A stretch of DNA of 64,000 nt. Source: Dictyoglomus thermophilum H-6-12. GTDB lineage: Bacteria; Dictyoglomota; Dictyoglomia; Dictyoglomales; Dictyoglomaceae. The stretch lies in NCBI RefSeq assembly GCF_000020965.1, contig NC_011297.1, forward strand, positions 682,001-746,000. The letters are read 5' to 3'. A program made the translations under genes and the position numbers. How positions within the stretch are numbered: the stretch's first letter is position 1; the number at the start of each line of letters is the position of its first letter. Of this stretch, positions 22,900-37,293 are shown one piece after another. Below the pieces are notes generated by a model, which worked only from the letters and a program-made list of their open reading frames with translations, was not told the origin of the DNA and made no database searches.

Positions 22900-23931
22900 A
22901 TGGGTATATCGCCTTTAGTTAAAGAGAAAATTAAAGAGGAGTTGCTGAAAATAATTGAAAGTAGTAGAAAAGATGACTATGTAAAAATCTCTTCTGAGAG
23001 AGAACTGGCTCAAATCTTTGCTGTGAGTAGGACCACTATAAGAAGTGTGATAAAGGAACTAATAGAAGAAGGAATGTTAGTACAAATTCAAGGGAAAGGA
23101 ACTTATATAACCCCTAAAACAGAAAAATTTGTTTATGTTTTGAATTCTCCAGATTTAAAAAGCGATGATCCTTTTTACTCTAAATTTTTTGTGGAATTAA
23201 CGAATAAACTTACAAAAAAAGGTTTTAATTTGAATTTTATATCCATGGATAGAATTGCTCGAAAAAAAGACAAGGAAGTGCCAGTACTCATTATAGGGGT
23301 AATTAATGACGGAACTATTGAAAAACTTAAAAATAATTTCAGATATTTAATTTCTATTGAGCAGTATTTTAATCATGATGAAATCATTCAGATTTCTGTA
23401 GATGATTATAGAATAGGTTGGTCTGCGGCAGAGGCCCTCATTAAGAGAAATCACGATTATATTATTCATCTTTGTGGACCAGAGAGATATACGGCACCTC
23501 GTTTAAGAAAGTTGGGCTTTTGGGATAGAGTTAAAATTGAGCCTAAGGTAAAATATGAAATAATTGAGGGAAAGATGAATTATAAATCGGGTTATGAATT
23601 AGGTGAAAAGGTCTTAGAGATTTTTAATAAAGAGAAAAGAAGTAAAATTGGAATTTTTGCTGCAAATGACTGGATGGCTATAGGCTTGATGCAGAGGTTG
23701 AAAGAGGCTGGTGTTATAGCAGGTAGGGACTTAAGCGTTATTGGATGTGATGATGTTCCTTTATCGACGGAGGTTGTTCCTAATTTGACTACTTTTAAAT
23801 GGGATATTGAGAAAATTGTGGAAGAAATTTTGGGGGTTTTGAGTGATATAATAAACAAAAGAAAGTCTGTTTTTGATAAAAGAGTTCTTGTGCCTGCTGA
23901 ATTTGTAATAAGACAGACTCTAATGGATTGA
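22900..23931 (+). CDS. AraR-like transcriptional regulator (GntR-type HTH plus LacI-type sensor)
   Basis: 343 residues. The N-terminal winged helix (about 5-70) is GntR-like: KISSERELAQIFAVSRTTIRSVIKELIEEGMLVQIQGKGTYI. The remainder is a periplasmic-binding-protein-like effector domain of the LacI/AraR type, with YRIGWSAAEALIKR, GIFAANDWMAIGLMQRLKEAGV and LSVIGCDDVPLSTEVVPNLTTFKWD. AraR in Bacillus has the same combination and represses sugar genes until its sugar binds. It sits directly upstream of the galactan transporter genes, which it probably controls. The promoter of that operon begins within its stop codon. Confidence 0.88.
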   Translation: MGISPLVKEKIKEELLKIIESSRKDDYVKISSERELAQIFAVSRTTIRSVIKELIEEGMLVQIQGKGTYITPKTEKFVYVLNSPDLKSDDPFYSKFFVELTNKLTKKGFNLNFISMDRIARKKDKEVPVLIIGVINDGTIEKLKNNFRYLISIEQYFNHDEIIQISVDDYRIGWSAAEALIKRNHDYIIHLCGPERYTAPRLRKLGFWDRVKIEPKVKYEIIEGKMNYKSGYELGEKVLEIFNKEKRSKIGIFAANDWMAIGLMQRLKEAGVIAGRDLSVIGCDDVPLSTEVVPNLTTFKWDIEKIVEEILGVLSDIINKRKSVFDKRVLVPAEFVIRQTLMD

Positions 23932-24072: not shown

Positions 24073-25269
24073 ATGAAAAAATTAGGTTATGTATTAATTT
24101 TAATCTCTTTAATGATTCTTTTCCTTAGTTTGACGGGAGCACAAACTAATAAGATTACTGTTTGGTGCTCTGAAAAGCAGGTAGATATTCTCCAAAGATT
24201 AGGAGAGGAATTTAAGGCTAAATATGGAGTCAGTGTTGACGTTCAATATGTAGAATTTGGCTCTATTAAGCCTAATTTTTTAACGGCTGCTCCTCAGGGT
24301 AAAGGGGCAGATATAATTGTGGGTGCTCATGATTGGGTAGGTGAACTGGTAGTAAATGGCTTATTGGAACCTATTAGTCAGTTCAAAGATCAAAATCAAT
24401 TTTATGCTACAGCTTTGAATGCCTTCTCTTATGGTGGTAAACTCTATGGTTTGCCCTATGCTATGGAGGCTATTGCACTAATCTATAACAAAGATTATGT
24501 AAAGCTTCCACCTTCTACTTTTGATTCCTTAATCTCAACTGCAAAAAGAATAGATACTGCTTATAAAGGAAGGGTTAGAGGCTTCATAACTAGTGGAACA
24601 GAATTCTACTATGTAGCACCTGTTCTTTTTGGTTATGGTGGTTATGTATTTAAAGAGACACCAAAAGGTCTTGATGTTTCTGATATTGGTCTTGCGAATC
24701 CTGGAGCTATAAAAGGCGCAAAACTTTGGAAGAGGCTTTTTGATGAAAAGATTTTAACACCTGGAGATAATTATCAGATAATGGATTCCATGTTTAAAGA
24801 AGGAAAGGCAGCAATGATTATTAATGGACCATGGGCTGTCAAGGCTTATAAAGATGCAGGTATAAATTATGGGGTAACTGTAATACCAAGCTTAGAGAAA
24901 GGTGTAGTGGCAAAGCCTTTTGTAGGGGTTCAGGGATTTATGATAAATGCAAAATCTCCTAATAAGATTCTTGCAAGAGATTTCGTACTCAACTATATAG
25001 CTACAAAAGATACAATGTACAAGATTTATCTGGCAGATCCAAGAATTCCTGCAAGAAAAGATGTCCTTTCTATGATTAAAGATAATCCTGATATAGTTGG
25101 TTTCACAAAGAGTGCAGCAAATGGTATACCTATGCCTAACGTTCCTGAAATGGCTTTTGTTTGGAGTGCTATGAATGATGCTCTTAACTTAATTGCAAAT
25201 GGGAAGGCAACTCCTGAGGAAGCTTTAGAAAATGCAGTGAAAGCAATAAAAGCTCAAATTAAGAAGTAA
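24073..25269 (+). CDS. MalE-type ABC transporter sugar-binding protein
   Basis: 398 residues with a signal peptide (about 1-24, SLTGAQ). It belongs to the extracellular solute-binding family 1: ITVWCSEKQVDILQRLGEEFKAKYGV, KGADIIVGAHDWVGELVVNGLLEPIS, YGLPYAMEAIALIYNKD, MFKEGKAAMIINGPWAVKAYKDAGI and RDFVLNYIATKDTM. It should capture oligosaccharides outside the membrane for the permeases encoded next. Adjacency to a GH53 galactanase points to galacto-oligosaccharides, although MalE-like proteins also bind maltodextrins; this is inference. A ribosome site (AGGGGG) precedes the ATG. Confidence 0.92.
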   Translation: MKKLGYVLILISLMILFLSLTGAQTNKITVWCSEKQVDILQRLGEEFKAKYGVSVDVQYVEFGSIKPNFLTAAPQGKGADIIVGAHDWVGELVVNGLLEPISQFKDQNQFYATALNAFSYGGKLYGLPYAMEAIALIYNKDYVKLPPSTFDSLISTAKRIDTAYKGRVRGFITSGTEFYYVAPVLFGYGGYVFKETPKGLDVSDIGLANPGAIKGAKLWKRLFDEKILTPGDNYQIMDSMFKEGKAAMIINGPWAVKAYKDAGINYGVTVIPSLEKGVVAKPFVGVQGFMINAKSPNKILARDFVLNYIATKDTMYKIYLADPRIPARKDVLSMIKDNPDIVGFTKSAANGIPMPNVPEMAFVWSAMNDALNLIANGKATPEEALENAVKAIKAQIKK

Positions 25270-25315: not shown

Positions 25316-25335
25316 TGAGGAGGGTGGATAATTTG

Positions 25336-27060
25336 ATGTTAAAATTAACAAAATTTGTCTTATGGTTTTTATTAGCGTTAGTTAATGCTCTTCTTTTTTG
25401 GGCAGGAGTATACCTGATTCAAAACTATTATTATGAACTTGGCGCAATTATAATAATTGCTTTAATCCTTATAGATTTTTTTATATTTAATCCTAAAGCT
25501 TATCCTTATAGGTATACAATTCCTGCTCTTATTTTTTTATTTTTACTTGTCATTTATCCCATATACTTTACCATAAAAACTGCTTTTACTAACTACGGAA
25601 CTGGACACATATTTACTCGTCAAGAAGCTGTTGAGAGATTATTATACGATCCTAATTATACTTATGTGGTTGAGAAAAATCCTATAGACTTTAAAATTTT
25701 TGCTGTTTACAAGGATGAAAAGCCTACAGAATCCTTTCTTGTGTTATTTAAAATAGGTGGAGAGACATATTTGGGGAAAATGCCTATTCCTACTGTAAGG
25801 AAAGGCACTGAAGTTTTGCTTAGGGAAGGTAAACTTTATAAAATAACTTCTTCTAAGGTAACAATAGATGGAGTATCTTACGAGTTTCAGCCTACTCTAA
25901 AAGATGTGAATCAAATAATTTCTAAGGATAAAGTTTACAAATTGCTATATTCTTCTGAGGATCTCAGTTTAGAGAGAAATACTTATTATTTCATCTTGTT
26001 AATACAAAAATATCTTTCTAATGCGGAGTATATAGATCAAGAAACAGGAAGAATAGTGGGAGTTAAGGTAGATACTGATGGTAGGTGGAAATTCTTTTTT
26101 ATCAATAGGCTATATCGCCTTTCTTTTGAAGAAGTAAAAGCAGGTGATAAGACTTATAAAAAGAGTGTAATAATAAACACAAAGACTCAAAAACCCTTGA
26201 TAGAGGAGAAAGGATCTTTTTATGATCTTGACGAAAATGGCAATAGGGTTTTCTTGATAGGTTATACTGCCTTTGTAGGGTTGGAGAACTTTGAGAGAAT
26301 CTTTAAAGATGAGAGAATATCTAAACCCTTTTTAAATATTTTTATATGGACTGTGGAATGGTCTTTATTTACCGTACTATTATCCTTCTCTATAGGCCTT
26401 ATTTTTGCTCTTGCTTTAAACAACAGAAGATTAAAGGGTAGAAATGTTTATAGAACACTTTTGATAATTCCTTGGGCAATCCCCTATTTTATATCGGTTT
26501 TGACATGGAAAAATGGTATATTCAATGAGACTTATGGAATTCTAAATAAGATAATACTTCCTATGATAGGATTGAATCCAATAAAATGGTTTAATGATCC
26601 CTTCTGGGCAAAGGTAATATGCATAATTGTTAATACTTGGCTTACATTTCCCTATATGATGACCATATCTTTAGGAGCTCTCCAGTCAATTCCTGATGAA
26701 CTTTATGAGGTGGCTGCGATTGATGGTGCTGGAAGATTTGCAAGATTTAGATACATAACCCTTCCTATGCTTTTAACTATTGTAGCTCCTCTTTTAATAA
26801 GTAGTTTTGCCTATACTTTCAATAATTTTACTCTAATTTATCTCTTAACAGCAGGTGGTCCTCCAATGGTTTCTGCAACCACGCCAGCTGGACATACTGA
26901 TATTTTGATATCCTATGTTTATAAGCTTGCTTTTGAGGGAAGAGGTCAAGAGTTTGGTTTTGCAAGTGCTATTTCTATTTTGATATTTTTCTTAGTTGCT
27001 GGTATAAGTTTGATCAATTTCAAAATATCGGGTTCTTTTGAAGAGGTAAGAGGTGAATAG
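25336..27060 (+). CDS. MalF-type ABC transporter permease with large periplasmic domain
   Basis: About 574 residues: three N-terminal membrane helices (within 1-80), an extracytoplasmic domain of roughly 230 residues (about 85-315) comparable to the MalF P2 loop, then the permease core with VGLENFERIFKDERI, further helices and the EAA loop ELYEVAAIDGAGRFARFRYITLP near residue 455. It forms the sugar channel with the next gene's product. Starts at GTG 25324 and TTG 25333 are also possible; GGAGG lies at 25319-25323, so TTG 25333 fits spacing best and ATG 25336 slightly less well. Confidence 0.9.
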   Translation: MLKLTKFVLWFLLALVNALLFWAGVYLIQNYYYELGAIIIIALILIDFFIFNPKAYPYRYTIPALIFLFLLVIYPIYFTIKTAFTNYGTGHIFTRQEAVERLLYDPNYTYVVEKNPIDFKIFAVYKDEKPTESFLVLFKIGGETYLGKMPIPTVRKGTEVLLREGKLYKITSSKVTIDGVSYEFQPTLKDVNQIISKDKVYKLLYSSEDLSLERNTYYFILLIQKYLSNAEYIDQETGRIVGVKVDTDGRWKFFFINRLYRLSFEEVKAGDKTYKKSVIINTKTQKPLIEEKGSFYDLDENGNRVFLIGYTAFVGLENFERIFKDERISKPFLNIFIWTVEWSLFTVLLSFSIGLIFALALNNRRLKGRNVYRTLLIIPWAIPYFISVLTWKNGIFNETYGILNKIILPMIGLNPIKWFNDPFWAKVICIIVNTWLTFPYMMTISLGALQSIPDELYEVAAIDGAGRFARFRYITLPMLLTIVAPLLISSFAYTFNNFTLIYLLTAGGPPMVSATTPAGHTDILISYVYKLAFEGRGQEFGFASAISILIFFLVAGISLINFKISGSFEEVRGE

Positions 27061-27062
27061 AT

Positions 27063-29306
27063 ATGGTTGAGAAAAAGACTTATTGGTTAACTCATATTGT
27101 TTTATGGATCTTAATTCCTATTATATTGTTTCCAGTGGTCTGGGTGGTTAGTACTTCTATAAGGAGAGATGAGGCTGCTTTTTCTACTAAGATCTTCTCT
27201 TCAAGGGTATCCTTACAAAATTATAAAGATCTCATTGCTCCCGAGAAGAATATGCCTGCTCTTGTTCAGGAAATTCAAAATCTTATAATGTTAACACCAC
27301 CTTATGATAATTGGGACAGAAAGAGGATTGAAAGAGAGATAGAAAGGGATATTTCTGCTTTGAAGTCATATATAGAAGAGACTAATACCAGGTATAACGA
27401 GGTAGAGAAGAACTATAAAGCCCTAAACGATTATTTGTCTTTAAAAACCGATAACATTAAGACAAGCCTATACGAGTTAATAGAAAGCTTAAAGGAATAT
27501 TTAGAAAAAAATCTTCCTAAGGAAGGAAAAGAAGGTGATCTATCTTTAAAATTATCCAAGTTAAAAAAGCTAAGGGAAAAGATTGAAGAATTAAACAGTA
27601 AAATATATCAGAATAGGGTTAAATATAATAGGTTTTTGGAAAAACTTAGTTTAATTCAGAGAGAGATCTTAGAGATAGATAAAAAAATTAATGCCCTGAA
27701 TAATGAAGTTGTAAGTCTAAATAGTAAGTTTAGTGATTTCTCGCTGGTAAGTTATAAAGAAAATTCTTATATTGAAGAAGCACAATCTGCTCTAATTAGT
27801 AAACTATCCCGATACTCAGATTTTAGTTTAGTGACCCAGAATATTAAAAATCTTTATCAAAAATTGAAATATCTTTCACCAAAGGATATTGAATACACTT
27901 ATCTTCAAACGTCTCTTTTTAAAATTTCTAAAGAGCTTAATAATTTGATTGATCAATTTGATAAGAAAGTTGTAGAGTTAAGCGCATATGATAAAAAAAT
28001 TGCACTTTTAAATCAAGAGAACGAATTTCTTGAGATGCAGAAGGAGCTTCTTCAAGGTCAAGAAGAGAACATAGAGGAAGAGGTAAAGCCATTAACGAAG
28101 ATTGATAAGTTAAAGGAGTTTATATCTTCTCTTGATAGTAAGTTAAATAAAATTCAGATGTTTGGTAACTTAGACGATTTGGTTAATGAAGTCTCTAATT
28201 GGGAGAGTGAATTTAGAGAATTTGTTACCTCATATATTATTGATTACGGAAGAGATAGTTTAAGCTCAAAGATTGAAAGTACTGCGGAAGGATTAAAGTG
28301 GTTTAATGATTACAAAACTTTGAAGGAAAGATTTGTAAGCTTTTCTTCTTACTTAAGTAAAAATTTAGAAAAGGCTAGCGATTTAACATCTAGAATAGAA
28401 AATAAATGGAGAGAAGTTTTTGAGAAGAATCTTCAAGGGAATAGATTATATCTTTCTGAGCTTGATGATTTATACAATTTAATAAAGACTGATTTTGTAA
28501 ATTTTGTAAGTGCTAACATGAATATTGTATCTAAAAAGGCTGGAGATCTAATGGATATAATTCCTTTTAAAGAAGCAAAGAAATGGCTTGATAGAATAGA
28601 TAACGGAGTATTTAGAATAGATCAAATTTGGAAACAAAAGACAAAACATTACTTTTTAAAATGGGTTAGAAATTCTATCTTGGTATCAGGAATAGCAGCT
28701 ATTATAACTACTTTAATATGTTCTCTTGCAGCCTATCCATTTAGTAGGATGAGATTTTGGGGCAGGAGATATGGTATTTTGACTCTTCTTCTTATTCAGA
28801 TGTTTCCTAGTGCAGTTTATATGATTGCTATATATACTCTACTTAATATCCTGGGTAGATTTATTCCATTTCTTGGGCTCGATACTCTTTCAGGTCTTAC
28901 CTTTGTTTATTTGGGAAATATTGCCTATAACATGTATCTTATAAAAGGATATTATGATACTATACCTGATTCTCTTGAAGAATCCGCTATGATTGATGGA
29001 GCCACCAGGTTTCAAACTTTTTACAAGATTGTATTACCTTTAGCAAGACCTATCCTAACTGTTGTGGTGATTCTTACATTTATGAATATCTTTAATGAGT
29101 TTATCTTTGCACGAATAATCCTTCAAGATGCTCAGAAATATACTTATGCTATTGGTCTATGGACTTTCTCTTCAGGGCCCTATCAAACAGAGTGGGGGTT
29201 ATTTACTGCTGCTGCTCTTCTTGGTATGTTACCTATGACTATATTATTCCTATCTTTGCAAAGGTATATTGTAAGTGGTTTGACTAAAGGAGCAGTTAAA
29301 GGATAG
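27063..29306 (+). CDS. MalG-type ABC permease with giant coiled-coil insertion
   Basis: 747 residues, against about 280-300 for an ordinary MalG. After the first helix (about 9-31) and the usual FSTKIFSSRVSLQNYKDL segment, a charged helical region runs from about residue 58 to 525 (many Lys/Glu/Leu heptads, no membrane helix), before the core resumes at WVRNSILVSGIAAIITTL (Trp534) and continues through the EAA loop DSLEESAMIDGATRFQTFYKIVLP near 636. The insertion should lie outside the membrane. I recall similarly oversized MalG proteins in Thermotogales. No ATPase gene is in the operon. Confidence 0.9.
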   Translation: MVEKKTYWLTHIVLWILIPIILFPVVWVVSTSIRRDEAAFSTKIFSSRVSLQNYKDLIAPEKNMPALVQEIQNLIMLTPPYDNWDRKRIEREIERDISALKSYIEETNTRYNEVEKNYKALNDYLSLKTDNIKTSLYELIESLKEYLEKNLPKEGKEGDLSLKLSKLKKLREKIEELNSKIYQNRVKYNRFLEKLSLIQREILEIDKKINALNNEVVSLNSKFSDFSLVSYKENSYIEEAQSALISKLSRYSDFSLVTQNIKNLYQKLKYLSPKDIEYTYLQTSLFKISKELNNLIDQFDKKVVELSAYDKKIALLNQENEFLEMQKELLQGQEENIEEEVKPLTKIDKLKEFISSLDSKLNKIQMFGNLDDLVNEVSNWESEFREFVTSYIIDYGRDSLSSKIESTAEGLKWFNDYKTLKERFVSFSSYLSKNLEKASDLTSRIENKWREVFEKNLQGNRLYLSELDDLYNLIKTDFVNFVSANMNIVSKKAGDLMDIIPFKEAKKWLDRIDNGVFRIDQIWKQKTKHYFLKWVRNSILVSGIAAIITTLICSLAAYPFSRMRFWGRRYGILTLLLIQMFPSAVYMIAIYTLLNILGRFIPFLGLDTLSGLTFVYLGNIAYNMYLIKGYYDTIPDSLEESAMIDGATRFQTFYKIVLPLARPILTVVVILTFMNIFNEFIFARIILQDAQKYTYAIGLWTFSSGPYQTEWGLFTAAALLGMLPMTILFLSLQRYIVSGLTKGAVKG

Positions 29307-29333: not shown

Positions 29334-31184
29334 ATGAGAAAACTAACTATATTAATTTTGATGGGGGTTTTTATGCTAACTTTGGGATATGCCGAAACTA
29401 AGGTAGTTGTAAATCCTATAGAAAATATATCCAAAGATTTCATTAAGGGCATTGATATATCAATGTTGTATGAGATTGAGAAAAATGGAGGAAAGTTTTT
29501 TGATAATGGGGTTCAAAAAGATCCGCTTCAAATACTAAAGGATCACGGAGTTAATTGGGTGAGAGTAAGGATATGGAATGATCCTTACGATGAGAAAGGC
29601 AATCCTTATGGTGGAGGAAATTGCGAATATAAAAGTATGACCGAACTTGCTAAGAGAGCAAAAGCTCTGGGATTAAAAGTACTTGTGGATTTTCATTACA
29701 GCGATTTTTGGGCTGATCCTGGTAAACAGGAAAAGCCAAAGGCGTGGAAAAATTTAAAAGGTAAAGCCCTTGAAAAAGCAGTTTCTGATTTTACATATCA
29801 GGTGATTAAGTACATGAGAGATAATAGAGCTTTACCTGATATGGTGCAGATTGGTAACGAAGTTAATAATGGTTTTTTGTGGCCTGATGGTAAGCTTATT
29901 GGAGATGATGCAGGAGGTTTTGAGAATTTTGTTAGGTTGTTCAATGCTGGAGCAAGTGCTGTAAGAAAAGTGGATAAGAATATTAAGATAGCTGTGCATC
30001 TTGCTGAAGGTGGAAATAGTGCATTATTTAGATGGTTTTTTGGAAATGTTTTAAGTTTAAAAATGGACTTTGATGTTATCGGAGTATCTTATTATCCCTA
30101 CTGGCATGGCACCTTGGATGAATTGAGGGAAAATTTAAACAGTATTGCTCTCTGGTTGAATAAGGAGATAGCAATTTTTGAGACTGCTTATGCATGGACT
30201 TTAGATGATGCTGATGGACATCCAAACATTTTTGGTGGAGACCTGTGGAAGATAGGAGGATATAAGCCTACAATTCAAGGACAAGCTACAGCTATAAGGG
30301 ACATAATGGATGTAATAGCTAATATACCAAATAATAAAGGTTTAGGAATATTCTATTGGGAGGGTTGTTGGATACCTGTAAAGGGAGCAGGATGGAAGCA
30401 AGGAGAAGGCAATCCATGGGAAAATCAAGCTCTATTTGATTTTAAAGGGAATGCTCTTCCATCTTTAGATGTGTTTAATCTTGTTTATAGAAAAGAGAAG
30501 GTTTATTCAAAACCAATAGAAGTTTTGTCCGAGATAAATATAAAAATTTCTACAGGAGAGATACCTAATTTGCCTGAAAAGGTTAAAGTGCTATTTGATG
30601 ATGACTCAATTAGAAGTATGAAAGTTAAATGGGATGTTATTGATCCAAAACTTATTGCAACTCCTGGAGAGTTTAAGTTAAAAGGAATTATTGATGAAGT
30701 ACAAAAAGAAATATATGCAAATATTCAGGTGAGTGGTCAGAAAAATTATATACAGAATCCAAGCTTTGAATCTGGAACTCTTTTCCCTTGGAAGGTTGAA
30801 GGAGATATCTCTGCTGTAAAGGTTGTAAAGGCAACTCCTCCTCAGAATGCAAAGTCAGGGGATTACGCTCTTAACTATTGGCTTGATAAGCCTTTTAAGT
30901 TTGAGTTATACCAGGTTGTTAAGGATCTTAAACCTGGTAAATATAAGGTTAGTTTTTGGATTCAAGGTGGCGGAGGAGAAAATTTAGTAAGGTTTAAAGT
31001 TAGTGGATACGGGGGTGAAGATAGATATATTGACATAACTAATACTGGTTGGTTAGAGTGGAAAAATCCTACTATAAGCAATATTGAAGTTACTACGGGA
31101 GAGATTAAAATAAGTATAATAGTGGATGGAAATACTGGAAACTGGGCATGGATAGATGATTTTGAGTTGAAAGAACAAGAGTAG
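29334..31184 (+). CDS. Secreted arabinogalactan endo-beta-1,4-galactanase (GH53) with C-terminal binding module
   Basis: 616 residues with a signal peptide (about 1-20). The GH53 barrel (about 35-400) shows KGIDISMLYEIEKNGG, VNWVRVRIWNDPYD, VLVDFHYSDFWADPGKQEKPKAW, the acid/base Glu176 in QIGNEVNNG and the nucleophile Glu283 in IFETAYAWT. A small Ig-like/bacterial domain follows (about 400-475), then a beta-sandwich carbohydrate-binding module (about 478-616: NPSFESG, WIDDFEL) like the galactan-binding module I recall on Thermotoga GH53. It cuts beta-1,4-galactan outside the cell, feeding the transporters encoded on both sides. Confidence 0.93.
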   Translation: MRKLTILILMGVFMLTLGYAETKVVVNPIENISKDFIKGIDISMLYEIEKNGGKFFDNGVQKDPLQILKDHGVNWVRVRIWNDPYDEKGNPYGGGNCEYKSMTELAKRAKALGLKVLVDFHYSDFWADPGKQEKPKAWKNLKGKALEKAVSDFTYQVIKYMRDNRALPDMVQIGNEVNNGFLWPDGKLIGDDAGGFENFVRLFNAGASAVRKVDKNIKIAVHLAEGGNSALFRWFFGNVLSLKMDFDVIGVSYYPYWHGTLDELRENLNSIALWLNKEIAIFETAYAWTLDDADGHPNIFGGDLWKIGGYKPTIQGQATAIRDIMDVIANIPNNKGLGIFYWEGCWIPVKGAGWKQGEGNPWENQALFDFKGNALPSLDVFNLVYRKEKVYSKPIEVLSEINIKISTGEIPNLPEKVKVLFDDDSIRSMKVKWDVIDPKLIATPGEFKLKGIIDEVQKEIYANIQVSGQKNYIQNPSFESGTLFPWKVEGDISAVKVVKATPPQNAKSGDYALNYWLDKPFKFELYQVVKDLKPGKYKVSFWIQGGGGENLVRFKVSGYGGEDRYIDITNTGWLEWKNPTISNIEVTTGEIKISIIVDGNTGNWAWIDDFELKEQE

Positions 31185-35296: not shown

Positions 35297-35445
35297 GAGT
35301 TGTTGTGAAGGGAGGTGGTGAGAGAAATCCTTAATGTTACTCGTTTTAAGTACGGTCTTAATGAGAGATTTAGAGAGGAAGCTCTTTATCCTTTAAAGGA
35401 TAAAGGTAGCTCTCTCTAAAAAAATATTTATTGTGGGAGGGTCGT
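35297..35445 (+). promoter_or_regulatory. Structured 5' leader of the SLH gene with possible upstream ORF
   Basis: The leader of about 150 bases carries a long hairpin: TTTAGAGAG (35369-35377) pairs with CTCTCTAAA (35412-35420), AGCT (35380-35383) with AGCT (35408-35411), and the tip is the perfect palindrome TTATCCTTT/AAAGGATAA (35386-35403). Upstream, GAAGGGAGGTG is followed by a GTG (35318) that opens a 33-codon frame ending at 35419, the base of the hairpin. The short spacing makes translation doubtful. A stabilising role for an abundant mRNA is plausible. Confidence 0.5.
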
Positions 35446-37293
35446 ATGAGTAGGAGGATTTTAAGTTTAGTATTAATGGTATTCTTAGTCTTAAGTGTTT
35501 CTTATGCACAGGTAGGTAAATTTAAGGATGTTCCATCTAATCATTGGGCAGCAGAAGCAGTTAAGTACTTAACAGATTTAGGGATAATTTCTGGAATCAA
35601 ACCTGATACTTTTGCTGGAGATCTATATGTAACAAGATATCAAGTTGCTGTCTTACTCTATAAGTTAATACAAGCTCTACAAACTGGTAAAATAGCCTTG
35701 CCTGCAACCGATGTTAGTGAACTTAAAGACCTTGTTTCTCAACTCCAGGATGAATTGCAGCTTATTGGAGCAAACGTAGAAGATTTAATGAATGCGTTAC
35801 AAGATCTTGATTCAAGAGTTTCTGACTTAGAAACAGCGATTACTGAGAAAGTGGGAGTAGAAGATGTAGAGAATATAGTCAATGAGGCACTTGCGGATGT
35901 AAATGCAAGGCTTGATGATTTAGAGGCAAAGATAGAAGCTATAGAAAAAGTGGAAATTACTCCTGAACAAATTGAGGCAGTAGTTGGAGATAAGTTAGAG
36001 CAACTTGTAGAATCAAAAATGGAGGAGTTAACTAGCAGAGTTACTGATCTTGAGGGATTTGTTACTGACTTAGATTCAAGACTTGCAGATGTTGAGGCAG
36101 CATTAGTAGATAAGCCATCTTTAGATGAAGTAGAGGCAATGATTGAGGAGAAATTAGGTTCAATTGAGGTTCCAGATGTGGAGGAGTTAACTGGCAGAGT
36201 TACTGATCTTGAGGATAGGGTTTCGGCAGTTGAAACAAGACTTGATGATGTAGACAGTGCAATTTCTGATATTATGAGTTCAGTAGATGATCTAAATGCA
36301 AATCTTGTAGATCTTTCTGGAAAGGTCGATGAGGTACTTGCATTAAAAGATCAACTTGATGAGTTAATAGCAAGGATAGAATCTATACAGGGTATAGAGA
36401 TTCCTGTAGAACTTGATGAGATTAAATCATTCATAATGGATTTAGACTCAAGGTTAACAGAGCTTTCTACCAGTGTAGATGATCTAAGTACAGTAGTAGC
36501 TGATTTACAATCTCAGATTGATGATATTAATTCGAAATTTGATCAAGTTAATACAAATATTGATAATATCAACTCTTCTATAGAAGCTCTATCTACCAGT
36601 GTGGACGATCTATTTGTGCTTAATGATGGAGTATCTACAAGATTAGATGAAACAGTAAATAGATTAGTTACTTTAGAAGAGAGGGTGGCTACTCTTGAGA
36701 ATAAAGCTACTGTAGAGAAGAATTTTGCATTGGATTTAAGATTTACAGTAAAAGTTGGTTTGGCCACAAGAACCCCAGTGAATACTCTTACAACAAAGTT
36801 AACATTTAATTTGATGCCTAGTGTAAAACTCTTCTTACAATCTGTGAGTAGTGCTAGTGGAATTGATATGTCTGGTGGTGTAGATGCAAGCATGCCAATT
36901 AGCAAAGATATAACAGGTGTTGCAGGAGCTTCATATGATAATGGTAAGTTCTCAGTTTATGGTGGTGTGAAGCTTGCGATGTTAAAGAATGCTGTAATTG
37001 ATGTTATAGTAGGAGTTCCAGATGTTATGGCTCTTGGCAGTGGAGAACTAAAAGATACAGTATCTTTGAAGATTGGTGGATCTTATAAATTAACTGATAA
37101 AGTTAGCTTAACAGGATATGCAACAAATCTTGAAGGTGGTGCAGCAGCAGCTAATTTTGCAGTAGTGTATGCTGTAGATCCTAAGGCTGATCTATCTTTA
37201 GGATTGTACTTGTACGGTCTAGGAAATCTACTTGGAGGTAATTTTGACGCTGTCCAAAAATCCGTAGTATTCTCTGCAGGAGCTTCCTTCTAA
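35446..37293 (+). CDS. SLH-domain, coiled-coil, beta-barrel outer-membrane tether (OmpM/Omp-alpha-like)
   Basis: 615 residues. A signal peptide (about 1-22, SVSYAQ) is followed by one SLH domain (about 25-75: FKDVPSNHWAAEAVKYLTDLGIISG), a long left-handed coiled coil (about 80-420, repeated SRVTDLE, LDSRL, SVDDL heptads) and a beta-rich domain (about 425-615) ending in Phe, the usual outer-membrane barrel signature. Such proteins span the periplasm, with the SLH binding the cell wall and the barrel held in the outer membrane. ATG 35446 has GGGAGGG just upstream; a TTG at 35431 overlaps that site. The gene stands alone between a consensus promoter and a terminator. Confidence 0.88.
   Translation: MSRRILSLVLMVFLVLSVSYAQVGKFKDVPSNHWAAEAVKYLTDLGIISGIKPDTFAGDLYVTRYQVAVLLYKLIQALQTGKIALPATDVSELKDLVSQLQDELQLIGANVEDLMNALQDLDSRVSDLETAITEKVGVEDVENIVNEALADVNARLDDLEAKIEAIEKVEITPEQIEAVVGDKLEQLVESKMEELTSRVTDLEGFVTDLDSRLADVEAALVDKPSLDEVEAMIEEKLGSIEVPDVEELTGRVTDLEDRVSAVETRLDDVDSAISDIMSSVDDLNANLVDLSGKVDEVLALKDQLDELIARIESIQGIEIPVELDEIKSFIMDLDSRLTELSTSVDDLSTVVADLQSQIDDINSKFDQVNTNIDNINSSIEALSTSVDDLFVLNDGVSTRLDETVNRLVTLEERVATLENKATVEKNFALDLRFTVKVGLATRTPVNTLTTKLTFNLMPSVKLFLQSVSSASGIDMSGGVDASMPISKDITGVAGASYDNGKFSVYGGVKLAMLKNAVIDVIVGVPDVMALGSGELKDTVSLKIGGSYKLTDKVSLTGYATNLEGGAAAANFAVVYAVDPKADLSLGLYLYGLGNLLGGNFDAVQKSVVFSAGASF

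Follow-up and report, generated by a model that had tools for sequence, protein, structure and literature searches.

A MalG-like permease of Dictyoglomus thermophilum with a predicted periplasmic coiled-coil arm of the Thermotogota type

The window, the whole 64,000-nucleotide stretch of Dictyoglomus thermophilum H-6-12 DNA that was analyzed, comes from a genome assembled as a single contig of 1,959,987 bp. It carries a malEFG operon with the following genes, all on the + strand. The solute-binding protein gene malE (24073..25269; nearest solved structures those of Thermotoga maritima MalE1, 6dtu and 2gha) is followed by malF (25324..27060; 578 aa, assigned by domain matches), by the malG-like permease gene, which is one uninterrupted open reading frame of 747 aa (27063-29306), and by a gene whose domain match is to a GH53 endo-galactanase with a Big_4 domain (29334..31184). 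Beside the operon is a probable regulator with domain matches to a GntR HTH and Peripla_BP_3 (22900..23931); the neighbor of the operon in the Thermotoga-like genome G149 is a LacI-family regulator (L156:3503-4504). Elsewhere in the window, 35431-37293 encodes a 620-aa protein with an SLH domain and a long coiled coil, which resembles envelope connectors of the Omp-alpha/SlpA type.

The permease core comprises MalG residues 525-747 (28635..29303, +; domain matches and alignment) and has an EAA-type motif, EESAMIDGA, at about 639-647. The PF00528 match is confined to residues 555-740 and that of the NCBIfam MalG model to 530-747. The protein passes the BPD_transp_1 (PF00528) cut-off (57 bits vs 26.4) and misses that of the MalG equivalog NF008231 (241.2 bits vs 261), for which reason we file it as MalG-like and not as a certified equivalog. 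The first membrane helix, residues 8-31 (27084..27155, +), has its hydropathy peak at 14-26, aligns with E. coli MalG 10-59 and is part of a helix predicted by AlphaFold2 at 8-39. E. coli MalG can be aligned with residues 4-54 and 531-747 of the window protein, leaving an extra segment of 468 aa, residues 57-524 (27231..28634, +), between TM1 and TM2. The first-pass annotation had placed a coiled-coil insertion of roughly 465 residues after the first helix, at about 58-525, and the alignment, hydropathy and AlphaFold2 model bear it out to within a residue at each end. Its description of the insert as charged and free of membrane helices likewise holds, as 33% of the residues are charged and no hydropathy peak above 1.5 is seen in a 19-residue window. 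The insert has 0 cysteine and 8 prolines, and its helices show a heptad-like hydrophobic periodicity of 3.4-3.6 residues that is equalled by 0-12 of 1000 shuffles. No Pfam domain is found in it above the curated cut-off, SLH and other wall-binding domains give no match, and the PDB profile matches are to generic coiled coils. Among 55 PF00528 matches genome-wide, this MalG is the only long single-permease frame; the frames of 525-596 aa were read as MalF or as fused pairs, partly from their lengths and neighboring matches.

In E. coli MalG, TM4 and TM5 are joined by the EAA loop, which is cytoplasmic, and hence, by homology, the TM1-TM2 loop of the window protein is periplasmic. The same membrane-helix parity with E. 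coli MalG agrees with the outer-side location that had been proposed for the insert and, on this homology, rules out a cytoplasmic one. A fusion of two genes by sequencing error, one of two outcomes named at the outset as refuting the observation, is excluded by intact orthologues and purifying selection. The orthologue in G001 is intact and 78% identical, and dN/dS between the two is 0.14 for the insert and 0.009 for the core. Helix F (helices as defined below) is 79% identical to its G001 counterpart, helices D and E about 70%, A-B 61% and the tip 46%. The intact orthologue, the dN/dS values and this gradient argue that the insert is translated and constrained, its base more than its tip. 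The analysis thus shows that, in place of an ordinary periplasmic loop P1, the window MalG has a homologous segment of about 468 residues that is helical throughout and subject to purifying selection.

AlphaFold2 was run on MalG 46-532 alone (mean pLDDT 90.3, pTM 0.69) and on the full protein (31-sequence alignment), for which the mean pLDDT was 77.8 and the core scored low, probably because that alignment contains long MalG only. On the + strand, the predicted helices follow each other as helix A (86-149; 27318..27509), the proximal outgoing strand of the arm as judged from overlays; an elbow region (150-164; 27510..27554) of reduced pLDDT; helix B (157-222; 27531..27728), the distal outgoing strand; a distal tip (223-275; 27729..27887) with two short helices within 235-269, the least conserved part in the G001 comparison; helix D (276-366; 27888..28160), assigned with the help of overlays as the distal returning strand; helix E (370-457; 28170..28433), the proximal returning strand; and helix F (465-523; 28455..28631), the best-conserved part of the insert, which ends in the invariant W523 beside TM2. 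In VIA-align overlays, MalG 158-342 (helices B and D) matched the dynein stalk 3wuq with an rmsd of 1.2 over 127 residues, and longer stretches of the insert matched SMC arms at 19 Å over 219 residues and a chemoreceptor hairpin at 30 Å over 293 residues; VIA Z for these coiled-coil overlays was at most about 11.7, a range common for long helices. Foldseek with the insert alone returned nothing below E 0.001 (best E 1.9e-03). Parts of the insert are like the dynein stalk (3wuq), the SMC arm (5xg2) and the chemoreceptor hairpin (2ch7) in shape; such helical arrangements are common, and no sign of shared descent was seen. The prediction is accordingly that the insert folds in the periplasm into a single long coiled-coil hairpin, antiparallel and bent, which ends distally in a small tip. 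By helix length in the model, its two segments would measure about 95 Å each, which gives only a rough estimate of reach. A similarly rough two-rod calculation finds the overlay rmsd of 20-30 Å compatible with an elbow bend of about 75-105 degrees; it disfavors a full 180-degree fold-back, weakly, being computed without coordinates. The elbow is also where lengths differ. Thermotogota carry on average about 75 additional residues there, and G002/L058 keeps such a segment. The window MalG lacks it, and its insert is for this reason shorter than the region in Thermotogales MalG. Across species the insert ranges from 467 to 652 aa.

The first-pass annotation had pointed to an oversized MalG in a similar Thermotoga cluster. 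Such a protein exists: it is TM1202, which has a paralogue (PMC2246101), and about 96 of 103 Thermotogota genomes have a match to the long MalG better than about 1e-88, mostly in frames of about 780-960 aa (a few fragments at contig ends are included in the count). The insert is about 30% identical to the Thermotoga-type proteins. A scan of 84,980 species for the pattern RRD[ENQ]AAFS[PTS], a filter that divergent members could escape, returned 37 loci, all from Thermotogota or Dictyoglomaceae except one metagenome-assembled genome (L075), whose MalF groups with that of Dictyoglomota. A profile of the insert run against 386 genomes matched only the family of the window genome and Thermotogota, bar a few weak matches (E about 1e-6) that look like chance coiled-coil similarity. 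Long frames in other phyla were rejected as insert-bearing MalG, being high-GC reading-frame artefacts or permeases with unrelated, smaller inserts. Within the genomes searched, the arm is therefore shown to be restricted to Thermotogota and Dictyoglomota. G004, a member of the same family as the window genome, has a short MalG only, the long gene being apparently absent. Three further loci are of note. Another permease from Thermotogota (L024:4995-7214; 739 aa, core 27% identical) bears, at the site of the MalG arm, a hydrophilic insert that seems unrelated. The long malG frames of L034 (G100:C17) and L084 are broken by stops, through decay or assembly error. At L157, a MalF frame of just 415 aa (L157:9007-10254) stands beside a long MalG (L157:6509-9010) and an alpha-amylase gene, a situation like that of the frameshifted malF2 of T. 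maritima (PMC2246101).

The MalG tree was built from the permease core only, excluding the insert. In it the insertion-bearing permeases, whose phylogeny the first-pass annotation had suggested as a check, form a single clade with support of 100/99, one state change suffices, and Dictyoglomota lie inside Thermotogota. Constraining the long clade of Thermotogota to exclude Dictyoglomota costs 26.8 log units for the MalG core, which is only mildly significant (p-AU 0.037), and 40.0 log units for MalF (p-AU 0.0006); a grouping of every MalG from Dictyoglomota as one clade is rejected (p-AU 0.0028). The MalF tree places Dictyoglomota as the sister group of the operons L059, L060, L061, L062 and L065, which mostly bear GH53; at L061, unlike the other four, no GH53 match was found nearby. 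The order malE-malF-malG-GH53 is common to Dictyoglomota and the GH53-bearing Thermotogota operons. A single origin of the arm is strongly supported. Given the nesting of Dictyoglomota in Thermotogota and the common gene order, transfer is the simplest reading, and the malE-malF-malG-GH53 operon probably passed from Thermotogota to Dictyoglomota. That the arm was kept in the transferred operon argues that it matters for function.

GH53 and GH3 genes occur in the operon context of the long MalG, and the GalR regulon of T. maritima includes the galactose-inducible ganEFG (PMC3750489); taken together, these would suggest galactosides as the substrate. The nearest solved relatives of the window MalE, however, are MalE1 and MalE2 of T. 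maritima, both maltose-binding proteins. It had further been supposed that the large insert is a conserved trait of thermophile galactan transport. Conserved it is, but the rest of that supposition falls away: the long MalG of L157 adjoins alpha-amylase and GH4 genes, most long-MalG operons have no GH53 in their neighborhood, and Mesotoga (L091), a mesophile, carries a long MalG. The arm is thus specific to neither galactan nor thermophiles, and a galactan-specific role for it is ruled out by the operon neighborhoods.

The partner permease is enlarged as well. P2 scoring across related loci places the P2 loop of the window MalF at residues 85-335 (251 aa; 25576..26328, +). Wherever P2 was scored beside a long MalG it has 244-270 aa, whereas in short-MalG operons it has 182-190 aa or 109 aa, or is nearly absent (31-38 aa). 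A block in mid-loop accounts for some of the increase. In E. coli, MalE touches P1 of MalG as well as P2 of MalF (Daus et al. 2007, as cited in PMC3150292). The joint enlargement of the two MalE-facing loops, with the arm in P1, points to the docking site and favors, indirectly, a link of the arm to the binding protein. As the P2 enlargement and the arm share a single clade, they represent one evolutionary event and the correlation is unreplicated. We tentatively propose, at somewhat less than even chances, that the arm and the enlarged P2 jointly build an extended docking cradle or tether in the periplasm. Such a cradle would hold soluble MalE at the mouth of the importer, and it could be useful where the outer envelope stands far from the inner membrane. 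As the tip evolves fast, shape or length would seem to outweigh a conserved partner there. Against the cradle, P1 and P2 are both short in E. coli, which docks its MalE all the same; conservation is poor at the tip and along most of the coil; and G004, from the same family, seems to do without the long gene. A broader version, in which P1 arm and P2 loop enlarged together make the importer a periplasmic device for retaining or relaying MalE, in an operon mobile between phyla, appears rather doubtful to us; we know of no such mode of substrate delivery in other importers.

An arm of this predicted length, two segments of some 95 Å, could instead reach peptidoglycan or the outer envelope, so that the importer would be anchored close to pores in the outer membrane or to enzymes at the surface. 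Ballooning envelopes with coiled-coil spacers, Omp-alpha among them, are known from Thermotoga (PMC3387000), and a variable tip could track a variable partner. We nonetheless regard a role as envelope spacer or anchor as unlikely. The genome's remaining PF00528 permeases work in the same periplasm without such an insert, the insert length varies between species over the range given above, and connectors of the Omp-alpha/SlpA type have an SLH domain or an outer-membrane barrel, whereas the insert lacks any SLH or wall-binding match. The conservation of the membrane-near base and the enlargement of MalF P2 in the same systems would also fit a hairpin that packs on P2, or on a second transporter, and so stabilizes or pairs importers. 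Packing at the base needs no long distal section, however, and heat stability alone fails to explain an arm that is present in Mesotoga, which leaves a device for assembly or stability with a small share of the probability. It is less probable again that the arm is a tolerated insertion of little function: rapid sequence change, variable length and unrelated inserts at the same site in other permeases are what weak constraint would produce, but dN/dS is 0.14, the arm is near-universal in Thermotogota and it was kept after transfer to another phylum. A scaffold for the secreted GH53 galactanase or other polymer-degrading enzymes is the most improbable, since GH53 lies directly 3' of malG in Dictyoglomota and several Thermotogota operons but not near most long malG genes, one of which adjoins amylase and GH4.

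The long-MalG clade bears on the question of how, across a wide periplasm, a binding protein reaches its transporter, for which MalFGK2-MalE serves as the model among type I ABC importers. E. coli MalG (2r6g_G) aligns with the window core end to end (E 1.3e-56; about 42% identical in a Foldseek overlay), and it too has the EAA motif and a partner MalF with a P2 loop; its P1 is a short loop, whereas that of the window MalG is the coiled-coil arm. The same genome offers a closer comparison in a short MalG paralogue (G000:C1:549358-550008; 281 aa), whose core is about 60% identical. This paralogue has its own malE and malF, lacks the insert, is paired with a MalF P2 of 182 aa and does not belong to the long clade. 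A genome that has both kinds of MalG, each with a MalF P2 of corresponding size, is a natural experiment. Noll et al. 2008 (PMC2246101) described, for MalG1 and MalG2 of Thermotogales, a region of about 500 hydrophilic residues lying between TM1 and TM2, stated that its function was unknown and found it in no other MalG. We found no later functional account of the arm in the open-access literature searched. Thermotogales MalG1 and MalG2 are like the window MalG in the TM1-TM2 region, the malEFG operon and the P2-bearing MalF, and where their operons bear GH53 the gene order is also the same; the window protein differs in coming from Dictyoglomota and in its shorter insert. The Dictyoglomota case removes the published confinement of the region to Thermotogales. 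The arm itself, then, is already described in that order, and what is new is its presence in Dictyoglomota, its pairing with an enlarged P2 and the fall in conservation from base to tip.
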